DNA from: Anaerolineaceae bacterium
GTDB taxonomy: Bacteria; Chloroflexota; Anaerolineae; Anaerolineales; Anaerolineaceae
Direction: 5' to 3'
NCBI GenBank assembly: GCA_028714615.1
Contig: JAQTMA010000107.1
Span: forward strand, 1 to 13,745
DNA: 13,745 nt
Below, in pieces: positions 435 through 13,670 of this stretch (positions are counted from its first letter, which is position 1; the number at the start of each line of letters is the position of its first letter). The translations under genes and the position numbers were made by a program. The notes below the pieces were generated by a model. The model saw only the letters and a list, made by a program, of their open reading frames with translations. It ran no database searches and was not told the DNA's origin.

Positions 435-463
435 TTGCCAATTCCCGGCTTTGGCTATATGAT
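435..463 (+). promoter_or_regulatory. Probable sigma70-type promoter of the hsd operon
   Basis: A -35 hexamer TTGCCA (435-440) and a -10 hexamer TATGAT (458-463) each match the sigma70 consensus at five of six positions, with an ideal 17-bp spacer. Transcription would start near 470 and leave a leader of about 88 bases before the hsdM ATG at 558. The promoter overlaps the alternative TTG start at 435, which argues that this TTG is not used. Confidence 0.6.
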
Positions 464-557
464 AGGAACGTTCGGATCGCCCTGTATAAACCCATCCAAT
501 ACCATATGCGGCCCTTTACCGGTTCATGGCCTCACCCTGGCACAATCAAGGAACCAT

Positions 558-2135
558 ATGCCTGCCAACAATACCGAACTCGAAAAGCGCCTGTGGGCCG
601 CCGCCGACGAGCTGCGCGCCAATTCCAACCTGACCGCCTCGCAATACTCCGCCCCGGTGCTCGGCTTGATCTTCCTGCGCTACGCGGACGCCCGCTTCAC
701 CCACGCCCAGGCGGATCTGGAAGGCAAAGCCACCGGTCGCAAGAAGATCACCAAGATCGATTACCAGGCCCAGGGGGTCATGTACCTGCCGGAGACCGCC
801 CGCTTCTCGGCGCTGGTGAACCTGCCGGAGGGCGAAAACATCGGCAAAGCCATCAACGACGCCATGACCGCCGTGGAAGAGGAGAACGAGGACCTGCGCG
901 GCGTGCTGCCCAAGACCTATAACCGCCTGGATAACAGGGTGCTGTTCGAGCTGCTCAAGATCTTCAACGCTATCCCTATGGACATCGAAGGCGACGCCTT
1001 CGGTAAGATCTACGAGTATTTCCTGGGCAAGTTCGCCCTGAGCGAAGGCCAGCGCGGCGGCGAGTTCTTCACCCCCACCTCGCTGGTCAAGCTGATCGTC
1101 GAGATCATCGAACCTTACCACGGCTACATCCTCGACCCGGCCTGCGGCTCGGGCGGCATGTTCGTGCAATCTGCCGAGTTCGTGCGCCGCCATAAGGGCA
1201 GCGAAAGCGCCATCAGCCTATACGGGCAGGAGCGGGTGGAAGAGACCGTGCGGCTATGCCGTATGAACCTGGCCGTCCACGGGCTGCACGGCGATATCCG
1301 CCAGGGCAACAGCTATTATGAGGATGTCCATGATGCCACCGGCCGCTTTGATTTCGTCATGGCCAATCCCCCTTTCAACGTCAACGGGGTGGACAAGGAG
1401 AAGATCAAGGACGACCGGCAGCGCTACCCGCTGGGCATGCCCAACCCGGATAACGGCAACTACCTGTGGATCCAGTTGTTCTACAGCGCCCTGAATGCTA
1501 CCGGCCGGGCGGGCTTCGTCATGGCCAACTCGGCCAGTGACGCGCGTCAATCCGAGCTGGAGCTGCGCAAACAGCTCATCCAATCCGGCGCGGTGGATGC
1601 GATCGTGGCGGTCGGCCCGAACTTCTTCTACAACGTCACCCTGCCGGTGACGCTGTGGTTTCTGGATAAGGGCAAGCAGGGCACGCCGCGCGAGGACCAG
1701 GTGCTGTTCCTGGATGCGCGCAGTGTTTTCACGCAGGTTGACCGGGCCCACCGCGAGTTTACCCCGGAGCAGGTCGGAATGCTGGCCAGCATTGTGCGAC
1801 TGTACCGGGGTGAGGATCTGAATGGGTTCGTTTTTGATCGGGGAAATTACGCCCTGCCTGAGCCTCAATTAGGGGTTCTGGAGACCGCGTTTACCAACCG
1901 TCAGTATACCGATATCGCCGGTTTGTGCAAAGTTATGGAACGGGAATCAATTGAAGATCAGGGTTGGAGTCTAAACCCCGGGCGTTATGTTGGGGTTATT
2001 GAAAAGCAGCATGACGAGTGGGATTTTTCCGAGCGATTAGAAGAACTGAATGAGGAGCTGGAGCAACTAAACAGCGAGGCGCACACTCTAGAAGCAATTA
2101 TTGCCGATAATTTCGTTACTCTCTTGGAGAACTAG
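558..2135 (+). CDS. hsdM: Type I restriction-modification DNA methyltransferase subunit HsdM
   Basis: This is the N6-adenine methyltransferase subunit (525 aa), which joins HsdS to methylate the target and HsdR to restrict unmodified DNA. The N-terminal helical HsdM domain ([13 protein letters not shown]) is followed by the SAM-binding motif [10 protein letters not shown] at residues 193-202 and the catalytic NPPF at 270-273. A glutamate- and leucine-rich, probably coiled-coil C-terminus (about 490-525) fits the HsdS contact. I chose ATG 558 because AAGGAA at 548-553 sits just upstream, the protein then begins as the family does, and a promoter occupies the earlier in-frame TTG at 435. The gene is GC-rich until about 1840 and then becomes clearly AT-richer, like hsdS. 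Its stop lies 3 bp before the hsdS start. The identification is very secure; the recognised sequence cannot be read from the gene. Confidence 0.95.
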
Positions 2136-2138
2136 CTA

Positions 2139-3353
2139 ATGACAAATAACTGGAAGAAAGTTCGTCTAGGCGATTTAGGAAGAATCGTCACTGGACGAAC
2201 CCCTCCCACGAGTTGTCCTGGTTATTTTGGAGATAAATACCCATTCATTACCCCAACAGATATGAACGGGAGAAAAAAAGCAAGTTCTACTGAACGATAT
2301 CTTTCAATTGAAGGAGCACGTCTACTAAAAAACAATTTAATACCCCCAAAGAGTATTGCGGTTTCTTGTATAGGTTGGCAAATGGGAAAATCCATCCTGA
2401 CGACGCAGCCATCCTTTACTAATCAACAATTGAACACAATAATTCCCAAAGAAGATATCGATTCAGATTTTCTCTACTATATGTTGCTAACTAAAAGAGA
2501 TGAATTATTCAAACTAGGGGCAATGACTGGGGTTAGAACTCCAATTTTAAATAAATCAGCTTTTTCAGATTTCCAGGTAACAATTCCTTCAAAGTCAATA
2601 CAGCAAAAGATATCTTCAATACTTTCCGCTTATGACGACCTGATCGAAAACAACACCCGCCGCATCCACATCCTGGAAGAGATGGCGCAGGTGATTTACC
2701 GCGAGTGGTTCGTTAAGTTCCGCTTTCCCGGGTATGAGGGCGTGCGGATGGTTGGTTCATCTTTAGGAAAAATTCCAATTGGCTGGGAAGTAAGTTGTTT
2801 AAAAAGCATCCTTAATAATATCCGTGATAATGTATCTCCCGGCGACCATCTTAATGACCAATATTATGTTCCAATTGATTGTTTACCTCGTCTTGAGCTT
2901 GCCCTTGAGAATACCTTACCTGGTTTAGAAGCGAAGAGTAGCTTAATTCTATTCAAACGAGATGATATCTTGTTCGGTGCAATGAGAGCTTATTTTCATA
3001 AGGTGGTTGTAGCCCCATTTGATGGGGTCACAAGATCTACTTGTTTTGTATTACGTCCAAGAGAAAGCTATTTATCTTCTTTTTCAATAATGACAGTCTT
3101 TGACAACCGAACAATTGATTATGCTTCGAACCATTCTCGGGGGGCTACAATGCCTTATGCTGTTTGGGATGGATCGTTAAACGACATGCCTATATTAATT
3201 CCTGAGAAGAAATTGTTAATTAAGTTCAATGATTATGTAAGACCATTAATTACAAGAATTCAAAGTAATTTCTTTATTCAAAGAAATCTCCGCCGACAAC
3301 GGGATTTGCTCCTGCCGCGTCTATTAAACGGCGATTTGTATGTGGAAGGGTAA
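2139..3353 (+). CDS. hsdS: Type I restriction-modification specificity subunit HsdS
   Basis: HsdS (404 aa) recognises the bipartite DNA target and holds HsdM and HsdR together. It has the usual order: first target-recognition domain (about residues 1-165, beginning WKKVRLGDLGRIVTG), central conserved helix (166-200, DDLIENNTRRIHILEEMAQ then REWFVKFRFPGYE), second target-recognition domain (about 210-375), and a C-terminal conserved helix ending RRQRDLLLPRLLNGDLY. GGAGA at 2126-2130 is a good ribosome-binding site for ATG 2139. Both recognition domains are AT-rich (32% and 30% GC on sampled 60-base lines), whereas the central conserved stretch is 53% GC and resembles the rest of the operon, so the recognition modules look recombinant. 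The gene is intact and its length is usual for a two-domain HsdS. Confidence 0.95.
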   Translation: MTNNWKKVRLGDLGRIVTGRTPPTSCPGYFGDKYPFITPTDMNGRKKASSTERYLSIEGARLLKNNLIPPKSIAVSCIGWQMGKSILTTQPSFTNQQLNTIIPKEDIDSDFLYYMLLTKRDELFKLGAMTGVRTPILNKSAFSDFQVTIPSKSIQQKISSILSAYDDLIENNTRRIHILEEMAQVIYREWFVKFRFPGYEGVRMVGSSLGKIPIGWEVSCLKSILNNIRDNVSPGDHLNDQYYVPIDCLPRLELALENTLPGLEAKSSLILFKRDDILFGAMRAYFHKVVVAPFDGVTRSTCFVLRPRESYLSSFSIMTVFDNRTIDYASNHSRGATMPYAVWDGSLNDMPILIPEKKLLIKFNDYVRPLITRIQSNFFIQRNLRRQRDLLLPRLLNGDLYVEG

Positions 3354-3379
3354 TCTTTCTGTAAGCCTGTGAGGAGAAT

Positions 3380-4303
3380 ATGCCAGCTATATACTTTTTC
3401 GAGATCCTATCAGCAGTGATTGAATCTGGAGTTCAATCTCTTATGATCCAGGAGAGGCTAACCAAAGATCAAGTATATGAACGGATCTGGAATGAAATCA
3501 GAAATAATCGCCGCGAATGGTTCTCGGGGCGTGTTCCTAATTTAAATTATTGCCTGCCTGAGTGCAGACTAGCATATTTATATGTTATTGCAGCTTCCAA
3601 TGCTAATATTTTTAAAAGAGTCATTGAGATTGATGATGATCTACGAAATCACATAATCGCTTTAGCACAAAACAATGCTCAAATCCGTTTATGTGCCTTT
3701 GGCGCTGGTCCAGGTACTGAGCTTTTAGCAATTTCGAAATTTTTTGATCAATTACGCATCGGTCAAACAGTGTCCATTGATTTTCAATTATTGGATAAGG
3801 TACAAGAATGGATGAGTTCTTGGTTTGGGATTCGGGATCAGATTCTTGCAAGATTCAGGATTAATCATGGAATAAACCCAATTAATTGGCCAATTCATCC
3901 CAACGGGAACTTTGTATCGTGTGATGTTACAGAATTAGGCAGGTTGGCGAATTTGGGTAATGTTTGGAATCAAGAGATTTATATTCTTAATTTTATCCTC
4001 TCAGAAGTATTTGACGACAATCCGGGGCTAAGGGGATTCATGGCTACTGTAAGCCAAAGTGCTCCGCATGGAGCTAGATTTGTTTTTATTGAACGCAGAG
4101 GATACATTTGGGAGAAACAAATTAGTTCAATTGCTCAGGGGGCGGGATTGCAATTGTCCAAATTTACGGAATTATCAAGTCAATCATTAGACCCAGACGA
4201 AGATCCACGGTGTTTAGGCGAGATTTATCGAGCCTTGTCAGCAAACGGGGAAAACCCAAAGCAAGGGTGGAACGTGGTTTATAGTATTGGGATTAAAGCA
4301 TGA
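3380..4303 (+). CDS. Class I SAM-dependent methyltransferase-like protein inside the hsd operon
   Basis: I do not recognise a named family for this 307-aa protein. It shows a Rossmann methyltransferase layout: motif I FGAGPGTE (G108-E114), an acidic residue ending strand 2 (D139, FQLLDKVQEW), an acidic residue after strand 3 (D182, SCDVTEL), and a strand-4 segment IYILNFILSEVFDD (200-213). There is no NPPY/DPPY or PCQ motif, so it does not look like a DNA base methyltransferase; a protein, RNA or small-molecule substrate is possible. GAGGAG at 3371-3376 lies only 3 bases before ATG 3380, which is tight; ATG 3443 (MIQERLTKDQ) is an alternative start. It starts 26 bp after hsdS and overlaps the next gene by 4 bp (ATGA), so the two are probably translationally coupled. 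Its composition is AT-rich, unlike hsdR. Confidence 0.65.
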   Translation: MPAIYFFEILSAVIESGVQSLMIQERLTKDQVYERIWNEIRNNRREWFSGRVPNLNYCLPECRLAYLYVIAASNANIFKRVIEIDDDLRNHIIALAQNNAQIRLCAFGAGPGTELLAISKFFDQLRIGQTVSIDFQLLDKVQEWMSSWFGIRDQILARFRINHGINPINWPIHPNGNFVSCDVTELGRLANLGNVWNQEIYILNFILSEVFDDNPGLRGFMATVSQSAPHGARFVFIERRGYIWEKQISSIAQGAGLQLSKFTELSSQSLDPDEDPRCLGEIYRALSANGENPKQGWNVVYSIGIKA

Positions 4304-5235
4304 TAATATCTGCAAGTTATAAAACGGATATCCCTGCATTCTATAGCAAGTGGTTTATGAACCGCTTGAAGGCAGGATATTGCAAGATAGTAAATCCATA
4401 TGGGAAGCAGGTTTATCGTGTCGATCTACAGAAAGAAGCAGTTGATGGATTTGTTTTTTGGACTAAGAATATTGGCCCATTCATGAAGACCATCAAAACA
4501 ATCAACGCTGAGGGCTATCCTTTTATCATCCAGTACGCAGTTACTGGATACCCGCGTGCTCTTGAATTTTCTGTTGTTGATGCTGAGAAATCAATCCGAT
4601 CTTTTCGTGAGTTAGCCAACAATTATGGATCCCAGGTGGTGGTTTGGCGTTATGACACCATTGTTCTTTCATCTTTGACACCTTATGAATTTCACTTGGT
4701 CAATTTTGAGCGGTTGGCAAAGCAACTAGAAGGCTCGACTGATGAGGTAGTAGTTTCATTCGCTCAGATTTATCGCAAAACATTAAGAAATATGAATTGG
4801 GCATCAAAAGAATTTGGTTTTACTTGGTTTGATCCAGATAATGATTTGAAACTGAGATTAGCATCCGAATTGGCCCAGATCGCCAGAACTTATCGGATGC
4901 AATTGACCATGTGTTCTCAACCGGAATATCTTGCGCCCGGAGTTAAAGAAGCACATTGTATCGATATCCAAAGACTTTCAGCAGTTGCCAATCGTCCAAT
5001 CCATTCAAGGCTCAAAGGCAACCGAAGAGGGTGTGCATGCTACTATTCTCGTGACATTGGGGAGTACGATACCTGCCCTCATGGGTGTGTATACTGTTAT
5101 GCTGTACAAAACCGTGATCTCGCAAAATCCAGATATAAAAGTCATGACCCAGAGAGTGAATTCCTTTTTCCCCCTGAAGGATATGTTCCGTCCAGTAATG
5201 ATGAAGATCAAATAAACCAACCACGGTTATTCTAA
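4300..5235 (+). CDS. DUF1848 family protein with C-terminal radical-SAM-like cysteine motif
   Basis: The 311-aa product matches what I know of DUF1848: an N-terminus MIISASYKTDIPAFYSKWFMN, then VDGFVFWTKN, and a C-terminal GCACYYSRDIGEY followed by TCPHGCVYCYA. The cysteines fall at 245, 247, 259, 263 and 266; C259-x3-C263-x2-C266 has radical-SAM (Fe-S cluster) spacing. Unlike classical radical SAM enzymes, the motif sits at the C-terminal end. The reaction and substrate of the family are unknown to me, so enzymatic activity is inference. ATG 4300 overlaps the stop of the methyltransferase-like gene (ATGA), implying a coupled pair. The last part of the protein is acidic and probably disordered. 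The gene is AT-rich and is followed by a 61-bp gap before hsdR. Confidence 0.8.
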   Translation: MIISASYKTDIPAFYSKWFMNRLKAGYCKIVNPYGKQVYRVDLQKEAVDGFVFWTKNIGPFMKTIKTINAEGYPFIIQYAVTGYPRALEFSVVDAEKSIRSFRELANNYGSQVVVWRYDTIVLSSLTPYEFHLVNFERLAKQLEGSTDEVVVSFAQIYRKTLRNMNWASKEFGFTWFDPDNDLKLRLASELAQIARTYRMQLTMCSQPEYLAPGVKEAHCIDIQRLSAVANRPIHSRLKGNRRGCACYYSRDIGEYDTCPHGCVYCYAVQNRDLAKSRYKSHDPESEFLFPPEGYVPSSNDEDQINQPRLF

Positions 5236-5296
5236 GTAGATTAGTGATCTCGGCTCAGTGATAATCAAATATTCAAGCATTAGAGATCAATTGGTG

Positions 5297-8200
5297 ATGG
5301 ACTATTCCGAAGACACCCTCATCGAACAACCCACCATCCATCTCCTTGAGCAGATGGGCTGGCAGGCTGCCAACTGCTTCGATGAGACCTTCGGCCCTTC
5401 CGGCTCGCTTGGCCGCGAGACCCCCAGCGAAGTCGTCCTCACCTCCCGCCTGCTTTCCGCGCTCCACCAGCTCAATCCCACGCTCCCCGAGCCGGTGTTC
5501 GCGCTGGCCGCCGAAGAGCTGGCGCGCGACCGCAGCCTGGTCTCCCCCGCCGAGGCCAACCGCCAGGTCTACGAGCTGCTCAAGAACGGCGTCCCGGTCA
5601 CCTACCGCGACGGGCAGGACGTGGAGAGCTTCGAGCGCGTGCAGGTCATCGACTGGAACACCCCTACCCACAACGATTTCTTCCTGGCCTCGCAGTTGTG
5701 GGTCTCCGGCGAGATCTACAAGCGGCGCTGCGACCTGGTCGGCTTCGTCAACGGCCTGCCGCTGGTCTTCATCGAGCTGAAGGCCGCCCACGTCGCTTTG
5801 AAACACGCTTACGATGGCAACCTGCGCGATTACAAGGACACCATCCCGCAGCTCTTCTGGTACAACGCCTTCATTATTTTATCCAACGGCTCGCAGAGCA
5901 AGATCGGCAGCCTGACCGCCGATTGGGAGCACTTCAACGAGTGGAAGAAGATCAACGCTGAGGGCGAAGAGGGGGTCATCTCGCTGGAAACCATGCTGCG
6001 AGGGGTTTGCGTGCCGCAGCGGCTGCTCGACCTGGTGGAAAACTTCATCCTGTTCGAAGAGGCACGCGGGGGCTTGCGCAAGATCATCGCCCGCAACCAC
6101 CAGTACCTGGGGGTCAACAACGCCCTGCAAGCCGTGCGGGACGTGCGCCAGAACCAGGGCAGGCTGGGCGTCTTTTGGCACACCCAGGGCAGCGGCAAGA
6201 GCTACTCGATGGTCTTCTTCTCGCAGAAGGTGCTGCGCAAGCTGCCCGGCAACTGGACCTTCCTGGTGGTCACCGACCGGCAGGAGCTGGACGACCAGAT
6301 TTATAAGAACTACGCCAACTGCAACCTCATCCGCGAGGCCGAACACCTGGTGCGCGCTGCTAGCGGCGAGCACCTGCAGGCGCTCCTGCAAGAAGACCAC
6401 CGCTACCTGTTCACCCTCATTCAGAAGTTCCACGCCGAGCCGGGTCAGACCTATCCCCGCCTCTCGCAGCGCAGCGACATCATCGTCATGACCGACGAGG
6501 CGCACCGCAGCCAGTATGACATATTGGCGCTCAACATGCGCAACGCCCTGCCAGGCGCAGCCTTCCTGGCCTTCACCGGCACGCCGCTCATGGCCGGCGA
6601 GGAGAAAACCCGCGCGGTGTTCGGCGATTATCTCTCGGTCTACAACTTCAAAGCCTCGGTCGAAGACCAGGCCACCGTCCCGCTGTATTACGAGAACCGC
6701 ATCCCCGAGCTGCAGCTCACCAATCCCAACCTGAACGCGCAAATGGCCGAGCTGATCGAAGAAGCCTGGCTGGATGAGGACCAGGAGCAGCGCCTGGAGC
6801 GCGAGTTCAGCCGCGAATACCACCTGATCACGCGCAACGAGCGCTTGGACAAAGTGGCCGAGGACATCGTGCTGCACTTCCTGGGGCGCGGCTACCAGGG
6901 TAAGGCCATGGTCATCTCGATCGACAAGGCTACCGCGCTGAAGATGTACAACCGGGTGCAAATATACTGGAAGCTGCACCTGGCCGCCATCCTGGCCGAG
7001 CTGGAGAGCTGCGCAGAAGAAGACCGCCCGGCGCTTGAGGAAAAAGCGGAGTACATGCGCCAGACGGACATGGCCGTGGTGGTTTCGCAGGGCCAGAACG
7101 AGGTGCCCCAGATGGCCGAGAAGGGGCTGGACATCCTGCCCCACCGCCGGCGCATGCTGCAGGAAGACCTGGCGACAAAATTCAAAGACCCGCAGGATCC
7201 CTTCCGCCTGGTGTTCGTATGCGCCATGTGGATGACCGGCTTCGACGCGCCCAGCTGCTCGACGATCTACCTCGACAAGCCGATGAAAAACCACACCCTC
7301 ATGCAGACCATCGCCCGCGCCAACCGCGTCTTCGGCGAGAAGGTCAACGGGTTGATCGTCGATTATATTGGCGTGTTCCGCGACCTCCAGAAAGCGCTGG
7401 CCATCTACGGATCCGGCCTGGGCGGCGAATTGGGCGCGGGCGAGCTGCCGGTTCAAGACAAGCAGGAGCTGGTGGCATTATTGCGCATCGCCCTGCAGAC
7501 CGCGGTCGAATTCCTCACGCTGCACGGGGTCAGCTTGCCGGACATCCAGTCCGCCGAGGAGTTCCAGCGCGTGCGGCTGCTGGATGATGCGGTGGACGCC
7601 TTGCTGGTCAACGACGACACCAAGCGCCAGTATTATCTGCTGGCTGGAAACGTCGACCGATTGTTTGGCGCCATCCTCCCTGACCGCAGCGCCAACGAAT
7701 TCGGCCTGGACCGCAAGACCGTGATGGTCATCGCCCAGAAGATGCGCGCCAACAGCGATCCGGTGGATATCTCCGCGGTCATGGGGCAGGTGGACGTGCT
7801 GCTGGATGCCTCGATTGCCCCCAAGGGTCAGGGCTACGTCATCCACGGCCAATCCGAAAAACCGATCGCCGAGACCAAAGCGGGGAAACCTTCTCATTGG
7901 GTGGACCTGAGCCAGATTGATTTTGAAGCCCTCAAGCGCCAGTTCGCCACCGGCCGCAAGCGCATCGAGATCGAGCGGCTGCGGGCGATGATCAACGCCA
8001 AGCTGCGCAAGCTGCTGGCCTACAACCACCTGCGCATGGATTACTACGAGCAGTTCCAGCACATGATCGATGAGTACAACGCGGGGGTGGAAAATATCGA
8101 TGCCTTCTTTGCCCAGCTCGTCACCTTCGCGCAGGGCTTGAATCAGGAAGAGCAGCGCGGCATTGCCGAGCACCTGAGCGAAGAGGAACTGGCGGTGTTC

Positions 8201-8482
8201 GATCTGCTCACCCGGCCCCACCTGAAGCTCAGCCGTACCGAGCGCGAGCAGGTGCGCGAAGTCGCCAGCCGGCTACTGGACACCTTGAAAGCGGAATATT
8301 TGGTGTTGGACTGGCGCAAGAACCAGCGCACGCGAGCGGGGGTGATGGTGGCGATCCAGCAGGTGCTGGACCGGCTGCCGGGATTGTATGATTCTCCCCT
8401 TTATGAGGAGAAGTGCAGCACGGTCTACCAGCACGTGTATGACTCGTATTACGGGAATGGCAAAAGTGTGTATCGTTCATAA
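5297..8482 (+). CDS. hsdR: Type I restriction endonuclease subunit HsdR
   Basis: HsdR (1061 aa from ATG 5297) is the ATP-dependent translocase and nuclease of the complex. The N-terminal nuclease domain carries a PD-(D/E)xK-type site: D146 (CDLVGFVNG), then E160-L-K162 (VFIELKAAH). The SF2 helicase motor shows Walker A QGSGKS (297-302), Walker B DEAH (400-403), motif III TGTP (427-430) and motif VI QTIARANR (670-677). The C-terminal part resembles the DUF3387/EcoEI-type region (EEELAVFDLL, then LVLDWRKNQRTRAGV). GTG 5258 is an in-frame upstream alternative adding 13 residues, but MDYSEDTLIEQPTIHLLE is how the family normally begins. Neither start has a strong ribosome-binding site. The GC content jumps just after the start (70% on one sampled line), marking the right edge of the AT-rich cassette. 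No frame damage was seen. Confidence 0.95.
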   Translation: MDYSEDTLIEQPTIHLLEQMGWQAANCFDETFGPSGSLGRETPSEVVLTSRLLSALHQLNPTLPEPVFALAAEELARDRSLVSPAEANRQVYELLKNGVPVTYRDGQDVESFERVQVIDWNTPTHNDFFLASQLWVSGEIYKRRCDLVGFVNGLPLVFIELKAAHVALKHAYDGNLRDYKDTIPQLFWYNAFIILSNGSQSKIGSLTADWEHFNEWKKINAEGEEGVISLETMLRGVCVPQRLLDLVENFILFEEARGGLRKIIARNHQYLGVNNALQAVRDVRQNQGRLGVFWHTQGSGKSYSMVFFSQKVLRKLPGNWTFLVVTDRQELDDQIYKNYANCNLIREAEHLVRAASGEHLQALLQEDHRYLFTLIQKFHAEPGQTYPRLSQRSDIIVMTDEAHRSQYDILALNMRNALPGAAFLAFTGTPLMAGEEKTRAVFGDYLSVYNFKASVEDQATVPLYYENRIPELQLTNPNLNAQMAELIEEAWLDEDQEQRLEREFSREYHLITRNERLDKVAEDIVLHFLGRGYQGKAMVISIDKATALKMYNRVQIYWKLHLAAILAELESCAEEDRPALEEKAEYMRQTDMAVVVSQGQNEVPQMAEKGLDILPHRRRMLQEDLATKFKDPQDPFRLVFVCAMWMTGFDAPSCSTIYLDKPMKNHTLMQTIARANRVFGEKVNGLIVDYIGVFRDLQKALAIYGSGLGGELGAGELPVQDKQELVALLRIALQTAVEFLTLHGVSLPDIQSAEEFQRVRLLDDAVDALLVNDDTKRQYYLLAGNVDRLFGAILPDRSANEFGLDRKTVMVIAQKMRANSDPVDISAVMGQVDVLLDASIAPKGQGYVIHGQSEKPIAETKAGKPSHWVDLSQIDFEALKRQFATGRKRIEIERLRAMINAKLRKLLAYNHLRMDYYEQFQHMIDEYNAGVENIDAFFAQLVTFAQGLNQEEQRGIAEHLSEEELAVFDLLTRPHLKLSRTEREQVREVASRLLDTLKAEYLVLDWRKNQRTRAGVMVAIQQVLDRLPGLYDSPLYEEKCSTVYQHVYDSYYGNGKSVYRS

Positions 8483-10423: not shown

Positions 10424-11132
10424 CCGAAGCGATTAATCCGCTCACGGGAATGGACAAATTGGGTAATTAAAGAGGTCCGCTATCGATATGGGTTCACCCT
10501 TGATAATCGGCGGGTTTATCGAGAGTGGTTAATCGCTTATCCCAAGGGACTTCCCCAAAAAATGGTTTGAACGACTTTACTTGCCTGAAGACATTCCGCC
10601 CGAGTTGCGGTCATATTTGCTGAAAGAAAAACGGTTTTCGGTAAGCCTTGTTCACCAAACTCTAGGGACCCATCCGAAGGTTACGATGGATATGGATGAA
10701 GAGTCGAGTGGTACCCGTCGGTGGTTTGCCCTGTCCTTTCCGATATTAAATGCCCTCTCCGAAGGGGATGTGCTTATTGTCGATGAACTCGATGCCAGGC
10801 TACATCCAATATTGGGTAGAGAATTGATTGAAACCTTCCATGATCCGCAGAAAAATCCGAAGGGTGCACAGATTATCTTCAATACACACGATACCACATG
10901 ATTGGATTGTTGTTTGTTTAGAAGAGACCAGGTATGGTTCGTAGAAAAGGATAAGAATGGGGAATCTCATCTATTTCCCCTATTGGATTTCAGTCCTCGC
11001 ATAGGGGAGGCTTTAGCGAAAGGATACCTGCAAGGGATATATGGGGCAATCCCCTTCATTGGTGGATGGAACTTGGACGCTGCTGGGGGGAATCATGGCG
11101 AGGGGACGAATATTATCAAGAGGGCAAATTGA
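10424..11132 (+). pseudogene. Decayed COG1106/RloA-type AAA ATPase (C-terminal part)
   Basis: Three conceptual pieces reconstruct the C-terminal part of an ATPase of the COG1106 (AAA_15, RloA/abortive-infection type) group. Piece one (10424-10562) reads YRYGFTLDNRRVYREWL. The frame then slips by one at a run of six A (10557-10562); with five A the protein would read on as QKWFERLYLPEDIPPE. Piece two carries the ABC-type signature ESSGTRRW (10701-10724), Walker B VLIVDELDARLHP (10770-10808) and NTHDTT. An in-frame TGA at 10899-10901 interrupts it, and piece three continues in the same frame with LFRRDQVWFVEKDKNGES and GAIPFI. The N-terminal half with Walker A is missing, since the preceding gene ends at 10404. 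Truncation plus frameshift plus nonsense codon make this a pseudogene. The family call is from remembered motifs. Confidence 0.75.
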
Positions 11133-12642: not shown

Positions 12643-13641
12643 GGTGGGGGTAGGGGCACGGGGTTGGGATGATCACCCAAAATCCTGGAACTCAACCCCC
12701 GAAATTCCGTGGGGGTAAGGGCACGGGGTTGGGATGAACGCCCAAAATCCTGGAACCGAACCCCGAAATGCCATGGTGTACGGGCACGGGGTTGGGATGA
12801 ATACCCAAAATCCTGGAACCGAACCCCGTGCCCATCCACGGGATTTCAACCATCCCGGAAATTGCGTGGAGTAGGGGCACGGGGTTGGGATGAACCTCCA
12901 AAATCCTGGAACTCAACCCCGTGCCCGTACATGGTATATCAACGATCCCCAGAAATTGCGTGGGGGTAGGGGCACGGGGTTGGGATGAACGCCCAAAATC
13001 CTGGAACTCAACCCCGTGCCCATCCACAGGATATCATCGATCCTGGAACCCAACCCCAGAAATTCCGTGGGGGTACGGGCACGGGGTTGCGATGAACCCC
13101 GTGCCCGTCCACGGGGTATCAACCATCCCAGAAATTCCGTGGGGGTACGGGCACGGGGTTGCGATGAACACCCAAAATCCTGGAACCGAACCTCGTGCCC
13201 GTCCACGGGATATCAACCATCCCGGCAATTCCGTTGGGGTAGGGGCACGGGGTTGAGATGAACCCCCAAAATCCTGGAACTCAACCCCGTGCCCGTACAC
13301 GGGGTATCAACGATCCCCGAAATGCCGTGGTGTACGGGCACGGGGTTGAGATGATCACCCAGAATCCTGAAACCGAACCCCAGAAATTCCGTGGGGGTAG
13401 GGGCACGGGGTTGGGATGAACGCCCAAAATCCTGGAGCTCAACCCCGTGCCCGTCCACGGGGTATCAACCATCCCGGAAATTCCGTGGAGTAGGGGCACG
13501 GGGTTGGGATGATCACCCAAAATCCTGGAGCCGAACCCCGTGCCCGTACACGGGATATCAACCACCCCGAAATTCCGTGGAGTAGGGGCACGGGGTTGGG
13601 ATGATCACCCAAAATCCTGGAACCGAACCCCGTGCCCCTAC
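12643..13641. repeat. Array of 12 palindromic tandem repeat units, non-coding
   Basis: The core GGGCACGGGGTTG occurs 12 times, starting at 12654, 12719, 12782, 12875, 12970, 13077, 13149, 13243, 13336, 13401, 13494 and 13586. The intervals are 65, 63, 93, 95, 107, 72, 94, 93, 65, 93 and 92 bp. A full unit of about 93 bp contains the core, a conserved CCCAAAATCCTGGA linker, the inverse arm AACCCCGTGCCC, a small palindrome such as CCCGTCCACGGG, then ATATCAACCATCCC and AAATTCCGTGG. The 63-65 bp units lack the inverse arm, the 72-bp unit lacks the linker, and the 107-bp unit has a partly duplicated linker. Frames are open on both strands, but most intervals are not multiples of three, so a conserved repeat protein is unlikely. 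Confidence 0.85.
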
Positions 13642-13670
13642 AGAATTTCTACCCAACTCACATTCCTGCT

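Follow-up and report, generated by a model that had tools for sequence, protein, structure and literature searches.

In EcoprrI, the gene of the anticodon nuclease PrrC lies between hsdS and hsdR. The available parts of two papers describe PrrC as embedded in a type IC restriction-modification (R-M) operon and activated when the restriction enzyme is inhibited (PMC3874165, PMC12707154). Other two-gene systems that invite comparison are Kiwa (KwaA-KwaB), which is a known anti-phage system, and TcmP (TIGR04474) with DUF5131. Here, we analyzed a window of 13,745 nucleotides from an Anaerolineaceae bacterium (Chloroflexota; assembly GCA_028714615.1, contig JAQTMA010000107.1), in which genes encoding a SAM-dependent methyltransferase-fold protein (MT) and a DUF1848 protein are found within a type I R-M operon. 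As far as the available part of the PrrC source goes, both cases involve non-R-M genes inside such an operon (PMC3874165), but a Pfam search (E≤0.1) matched the proteins of our pair to no nuclease. Like the pair, Kiwa is a two-gene cargo found in the same hsdS-hsdR slot (loci L123 and L129), although its proteins are unrelated. TcmP/DUF5131 likewise combines an MT-like protein with a Cys-motif protein in a two-gene unit, but there the Cys motif sits elsewhere in the protein.

The R-M operon of the window is intact according to the list of open reading frames and the Pfam matches, with hsdM (435..2135; PF02384, 1.4e-82, and PF12161), hsdS (2139..3353; PF01420, 7.9e-33) and hsdR (5258..8482; PF04313, PF18766 and PF11867) all present on the forward strand. 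The hsdR start is a GTG at 5258, an ATG at 5297 also being possible. The slot between hsdS and hsdR (3354..5257, forward strand), which we delimit from the gene content of related operons and from composition, holds the MT gene (3380..4303, forward strand, 307 residues) and the DUF1848 gene (4300..5235, forward strand, 311 residues), both with ATG starts and overlapping by 4 bp (ATGA). The first-pass annotation had described two intact, 4-bp-overlapping genes inside the hsd operon, and this description holds. Both reading frames are genes, since each has many full-length relatives: 85 for MT and, for DUF1848, 6496 proteins at E≤0.001, with Chloroflexota names among the close relatives in the best 120 of 6496 listed. 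The pair is probably of foreign origin because its composition is unlike that of hsdM and hsdR: G+C is 39.7% for MT and 41.1% for DUF1848 vs 59% and 61%, respectively, and GC3 is 33% and 36% vs 76% and 85%. As for hsdS, its overall G+C of 39% combines two variable parts at 36-37% with a central part at 56%, as would be expected of exchanged target-recognition domains. Farther downstream, an apparent remnant of an AAA_21-type ATPase (C-terminal fragment of 106 residues, PF13304) lies at 10581-10901, and imperfect tandem repeats with periods of ~63-158 occupy 12644-13642, where overlapping open reading frames on both strands are probably spurious.

MT belongs to a rare, PF11312-like family. In the window protein, the glycine-rich stretch GAGPG lies at residue 108 and a [DNS]PP[YFW] motif is missing, which bears out the earlier claim of a SAM-binding motif without a DNA-methyltransferase catalytic motif. 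Assignment as a DNA methyltransferase was considered and rejected, given the missing motif and the lack of any Pfam match to a DNA methylase at E≤0.1. The Methyltransf_34 model (PF11312) matches 26 of 28 aligned MT proteins at E≤5 (best 1.2e-8), and the window protein misses its gathering cut-off with 15.0 of 26 bits. At the sequence level, MT is kin of PF11312 proteins but no member by that cut-off. The best fold matches of the MT model are METTL17/Rsm22-type chains; Foldseek alone placed NNMT and histamine methyltransferase first, with TM-scores of 0.38-0.53, and a second look put METTL17/Rsm22 first. The fold that MT is predicted to have in common with Rsm22/METTL17 is set against two differences: the Pfam matches of the 28 members include no Rsm22 model, and the Cys/His cluster motif (CHxxCP) is absent from MT. 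The Cys residues of the window protein are at 58, 62, 105, 181 and 278 only, C62 and C105 alone being invariant. The glycine loop and an acidic residue are kept even in rows that are 18-24% identical. A PDB sequence search with the MT profile returned no believable match. A 499-residue MT relative (P0034), considered as a fusion protein that would prove linkage, was discarded, having on reading an N-terminal extension only.

The second protein matches PF08902 (DUF1848) over the entire profile (1-262 of 262) with an E-value of 2.5e-90 and 303.3 bits against a cut-off of 30.5. Its sole CX3CX2C motif, CPHGCVYC, is at residues 259-266 of 311 (codons at 5074..5097, forward strand) and is found in 28/28 aligned proteins. 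Both the DUF1848 identity and the radical-SAM-like Cys trio noted in the first-pass annotation thus stand. Since Cys 205, 220, 245 and 247, which the first-pass annotation had left unmentioned, are also invariant, making seven in all in the 28 sequences, a second Fe-S cluster is possible. The Radical_SAM model (PF04055) matches 17 of the 28 proteins weakly at E≤5, with a best value of 6.1e-4 and no match for the window protein. When 10 DUF1848 proteins were examined singly, six matched with E-values of 0.037-0.12, all below cut-off, and in all six the beginning of PF04055 (position 5 to 28 at most) aligns with residues 257 to 282 at most. In the fold search, the N-terminus of the DUF1848 model aligns with radical-SAM chains beyond their cluster; for PFL-AE, the alignment starts at residue 71, the motif being at 30-37. 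The Z-values of 8-10 are modest, with other barrels close behind, and the cluster loop has a pLDDT <50. The C-terminal position of the Cys motif, the start of PF04055 near the protein end and the alignment with PFL-AE past its cluster together suggest that DUF1848 is a radical-SAM enzyme with a circular permutation that would have placed the first strand, cluster loop and first helix at the C-terminus.

Neither Foldseek with the DUF1848 model (no match at E≤0.001) nor a PDB sequence search with the DUF1848 profile (no believable match) identified a relative. In a comparison with a protein that we take, from its motif, to be photoproduct-lyase-like, the likeness of DUF1848 was 74% across the 53 columns surrounding the Cys motif; the absence of photoproduct lyase from the 50 fold-search matches listed says nothing against this likeness. 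The PADLOC model RTasDUF1848, labelled DRT, matches the window protein at 1.5e-44, and its name implies that DUF1848 has been noted beside reverse transcriptases. Our literature search, whose scope excluded most subscription papers and bioRxiv preprints that are not in PMC, found no paper naming DUF1848.

The first-pass annotation had likened the pair to TcmP and DUF5131. The likeness is upheld for the architecture; kinship is not, since hhalign gives a probability of 0.8% for MT vs TcmP, 8.1% for DUF1848 vs DUF5131 and 0.4% for the distant MT clade vs TcmP. Homology was rejected after comparison with 15 TcmP and 13 DUF5131-like open reading frames from 18 planctomycete loci, and the pair has no NCBIfam match at E≤0.1, TcmP (TIGR04474) included. 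In 13 of these 18 loci (L057-L074), TcmP has an adjacent or nearby DUF5131-like gene, which we presume to be such from its motif. In L069 (380-2343), TcmP is beside a photoproduct-lyase-like radical-SAM-type protein, named from its motif, with no DUF5131. In view of this other neighbor, TcmP too may exchange partners.

That MT and its neighbor form a conserved unit is borne out by the adjacency count, in which the gene directly downstream of MT in all 20 collected loci encodes one of two proteins, which argues that the pairing is not chance. It is DUF1848 in 10 (the window, L008, L010, L011, L013, L014, L030, L031, L032 and L134) and an ALKBH2/3-like dioxygenase, hereafter AlkB, in the other 10 (L001, L003, L004, L005, L006, L007, L009, L012, L135 and L136). 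These loci come from samples (one genome scan with 12 loci, and 1998 sampled genome searches), and the 20 leave out two weak MT loci: L090, where the MT match (E=1.6e-4) has DUF1848 downstream, and L099, where the match (E=3.7e-10) has AlkB upstream. In L099 (7093-9121), the order is reversed, AlkB being followed by a 453-residue protein whose N-terminal part is helical and which matches PF11312 weakly (8e-4). When whole orders were searched, the pair turned up in the seed genomes only (1/87, 1/45 and 1/60). Matching the MT and DUF1848 lists by equal record size gave seven in common, one being the window and two being shorter than 2300 bases and perhaps due to chance; we do not count these as evidence. 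No title describing the pair was found in the literature searched, a scope that omits most subscription papers and non-PMC bioRxiv preprints and is no proof that the pair is unpublished.

The two partners have replaced each other. We built a tree of 19 MT rows, omitting L012, where the MT gene (894-1819) is split over two frames and the AlkB partner is intact. The near and distant MT clades are each fully supported and each contain both partner types, so that the supported branches require no fewer than two switches of partner, to which the tree, being unrooted, gives no direction. A cyanobacterial AlkB-partnered set (support 84/93, and 95/94 in another tree) falls among the DUF1848-partnered rows of the near clade, its nearest kin there being the window, L008 and L011. 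Since the MT of L011 is close (50%) and its DUF1848 distant (35%), the partners appear to be reshuffled, and the lack of correlation between MT and DUF1848 identities (0.06, n=10) is in keeping with this. MT and AlkB identities correlate at 0.95, a value reached in 2 of 5000 shuffles (n=8, L099 included).

ALKBH2 and ALKBH3 are demethylases that act on N1-methylated adenine and N3-methylated pyrimidines. The AlkB partners match human ALKBH3 at 6.6e-59 over most of the protein and ALKBH2 at 8.8e-50, but E. coli AlkB at only 2.4e-4 and ALKBH8 at only 4.6e-4, and they keep the iron and 2-oxoglutarate residues. Unlike ALKBH2/ALKBH3, they are encoded by genes of bacterial, plasmid or phage-like origin that are linked to an MT gene; the window itself has no gene of this type. 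Scans of a viral collection found no locus with profile A1, three with A3 (L134-L136) and the same three contigs with A4. By our reading of the genes, and not by family matches, L134 has an integrase-like gene by the pair and L135 and L136 have phage-structure-like genes. The L134 MT is identical to the Sorangium protein P0208.

Many DUF1848 genes occur alone or beside other genes. Among 24 DUF1848 loci in 300 sampled genomes of two phyla, three of which have no upstream DNA, an MT-like gene is directly upstream in eight. It matches the MT profile in four (G006, G906, G909 and G010, of which G006 and G010 are centre genomes picked because they have the pair), matches weakly in one (L090) and is recognized by motif or weak profile only in three (L076, L087 and L088). 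In the viral collection, three of seven DUF1848 loci have such a gene (L140, on the contig of L134, L141 and L143), the L141 and L143 proteins being kin to those of L076 and L087 (2e-15 and 1e-58, respectively). Since MT-like genes of other kin are also found upstream of DUF1848, several methyltransferase lineages may work with it.

The unit is also enriched at R-M loci, so that the outcome by which the first-pass annotation would have been refuted (homologues never adjacent, or no enrichment near defence genes) did not occur: homologues are adjacent, and hsdM is within 5 kb of the DUF1848-type pair in four of eight genomes (G006, G011, G906 and G1176), against an expectation of 0.039 calculated from genome sizes and the number of hsdM genes (P ~3e-8, with the 5-kb limit chosen after seeing the data). 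Among the others, the pair in G909 shares its 4-kb contig with hsdS, that in G007 is surrounded by genes for a ResIII-type helicase, an AAA ATPase and an N6/N4 methylase, and the contigs of G008 and G010 stop near MT. The AlkB-type pair has hsdM within 5 kb in only one of eight genomes (G137, with the match at the coordinates of plasmid pNLP4; P ~0.017), and the chromosomal loci L003-L006 are surrounded by enzyme, transport and signalling genes. The R-M link is therefore mainly one of the DUF1848 form. L008, from another phylum, has the hsdM-hsdS-pair-hsdR order of the window. Serine-recombinase genes lie upstream of the MT-DUF1848-hsdM block in L014 (Pfam match), L079 and L098 (by reading L030/L031), which suggests that the block is mobile.

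We read the gap between hsdS and hsdR as a general cargo slot; neither this nor the AlkB partner in half of the MT loci had been noticed in the first-pass annotation. In 201 sampled Chloroflexota genomes, the window hsdR has 11 relatives at E≤1e-150 (closest HsdR 62%), eight of which have a visible slot; the contigs of L120, L122 and L130 stop before hsdS and were left out. The slot is without cargo in five of the eight (L121, L124, L125, L127 and L128), holds KwaA-KwaB in two (L123:3024-4563 and L129:9192-10856) and holds a PADLOC candidate PDC-M14A-like gene of 348 residues with an unmatched gene of 368 residues in one (L126:4906-7027). The MT-DUF1848 pair is in none of the eight. Outside this set, a GmrSD-type nuclease (L098) or a PDDEXK-domain gene (plasmid pNLP4) occupies the gap between hsdS and hsdR. 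By eye, a 317-residue gene beside the pair in L080 starts with a Cys-rich stretch similar to that of the L126 slot gene. Between hsdM and hsdS, L123 (5930-7551) and L126 (9015-10686) have an RmrA-like regulator and a small protein, which matches PemK/MazF in L123 and, in L126, looks alike with no match in the PADLOC scan.

The reading that we favor, at somewhat less than an even chance, is that the pair is a nucleic-acid base-modification module, a methyltransferase writer with a C-H-activating partner, carried as a passenger in a type I R-M operon. MT would bind SAM and methylate an RNA or DNA base. The partner would then attack a C-H bond of that methyl. With AlkB, an iron-oxo species would do so and lead to removal by oxidation; with DUF1848, a 5'-deoxyadenosyl radical would lead to removal or further change. 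That the partner acts on the methyl installed by MT is suggested by the finding that two unrelated enzymes, both of a C-H-activating type, replace each other next to one MT. Given that the AlkB partners belong to the ALKBH2/3 type, the likely mark would be an N-methyl on the Watson-Crick face, such as m3U/m3T, m3C or m1A; that DUF1848 also acts on such a mark is our guess. The pair would be carried as defence cargo, and a passenger is favored over a module of the type I enzyme because MT pairs occur with no nearby hsd genes, in most AlkB-type loci and on phage-like contigs, and because in L010 a helicase and another type of methylase are beside the pair.

An unlikely rival is a guard or toxin-antidote in a PrrC-like position, with MT methylation of tRNA, rRNA or DNA on the Watson-Crick face being toxic, the partner reversing it in healthy cells, and phage interference with restriction or with the partner unleashing MT. 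What the available parts of the sources say of PrrC, embedded in a type IC operon and active upon inhibition of the enzyme, offers a precedent (PMC3874165, PMC12707154), and the presence of Kiwa in the same slot and the demethylase type of the AlkB partner fit as well. However, pairs are found without near R-M genes, as in the seven of eight AlkB-type genomes with no hsdM within 5 kb and in phage-like L135/L136, and both the toxicity of MT and a physical tie to the restriction complex are assumptions of this explanation.

Rather unlikely is a repair module, in which the AlkB or radical enzyme would directly reverse base damage in DNA or RNA and the MT-fold protein would only recognize the substrate or recruit the enzyme, so that nucleic acid of the host or of a phage is protected, perhaps from side reactions of R-M methylases. 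The ALKBH2/3 type of the partner speaks for repair, and METTL17, a relative in fold, is presented as an assembly factor in the available part of one paper (PMC9892005). Against this, the glycine loop and acidic residue conserved in the most divergent MT rows would be needless in a pure binder, and the photoproduct-lyase-like resemblance of DUF1848 is confined to the short stretch around the Cys motif. We give still less weight to a stable hypermodification of, say, tRNA or DNA bases. Here, the partner would add to the methylated base and not remove the methyl, which would shield the nucleic acid from nucleases or counter-defence. The AlkB partners, however, are far closer to ALKBH3 than to ALKBH8, and two unrelated enzymes yielding the same product seem less likely than two that both erase. 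Chance landing of an ordinary mobile gene pair between hsdS and hsdR would fit the low G+C of the insert and its absence from the related Chloroflexota operons, but is very improbable given the proximity of hsdM in half of the DUF1848-type genomes and the identical gene order in another phylum.

Returning to the base-modification module, it might also embody an undescribed defence principle, a writer and eraser of Watson-Crick-face methylation, with two unrelated erasers swapped and the whole moved by phages, plasmids and the hsdS-hsdR slot, acting either as a toxin under certain conditions or in marking nucleic acid as own or foreign; this we put forward as a speculation with a modest chance of being right. 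DUF1848 is a family with thousands of members, for which replacement by an ALKBH2/3-like dioxygenase beside the same MT is a concrete chemistry lead, and the hsdS-hsdR slot is a practical place in which to seek further defence genes.
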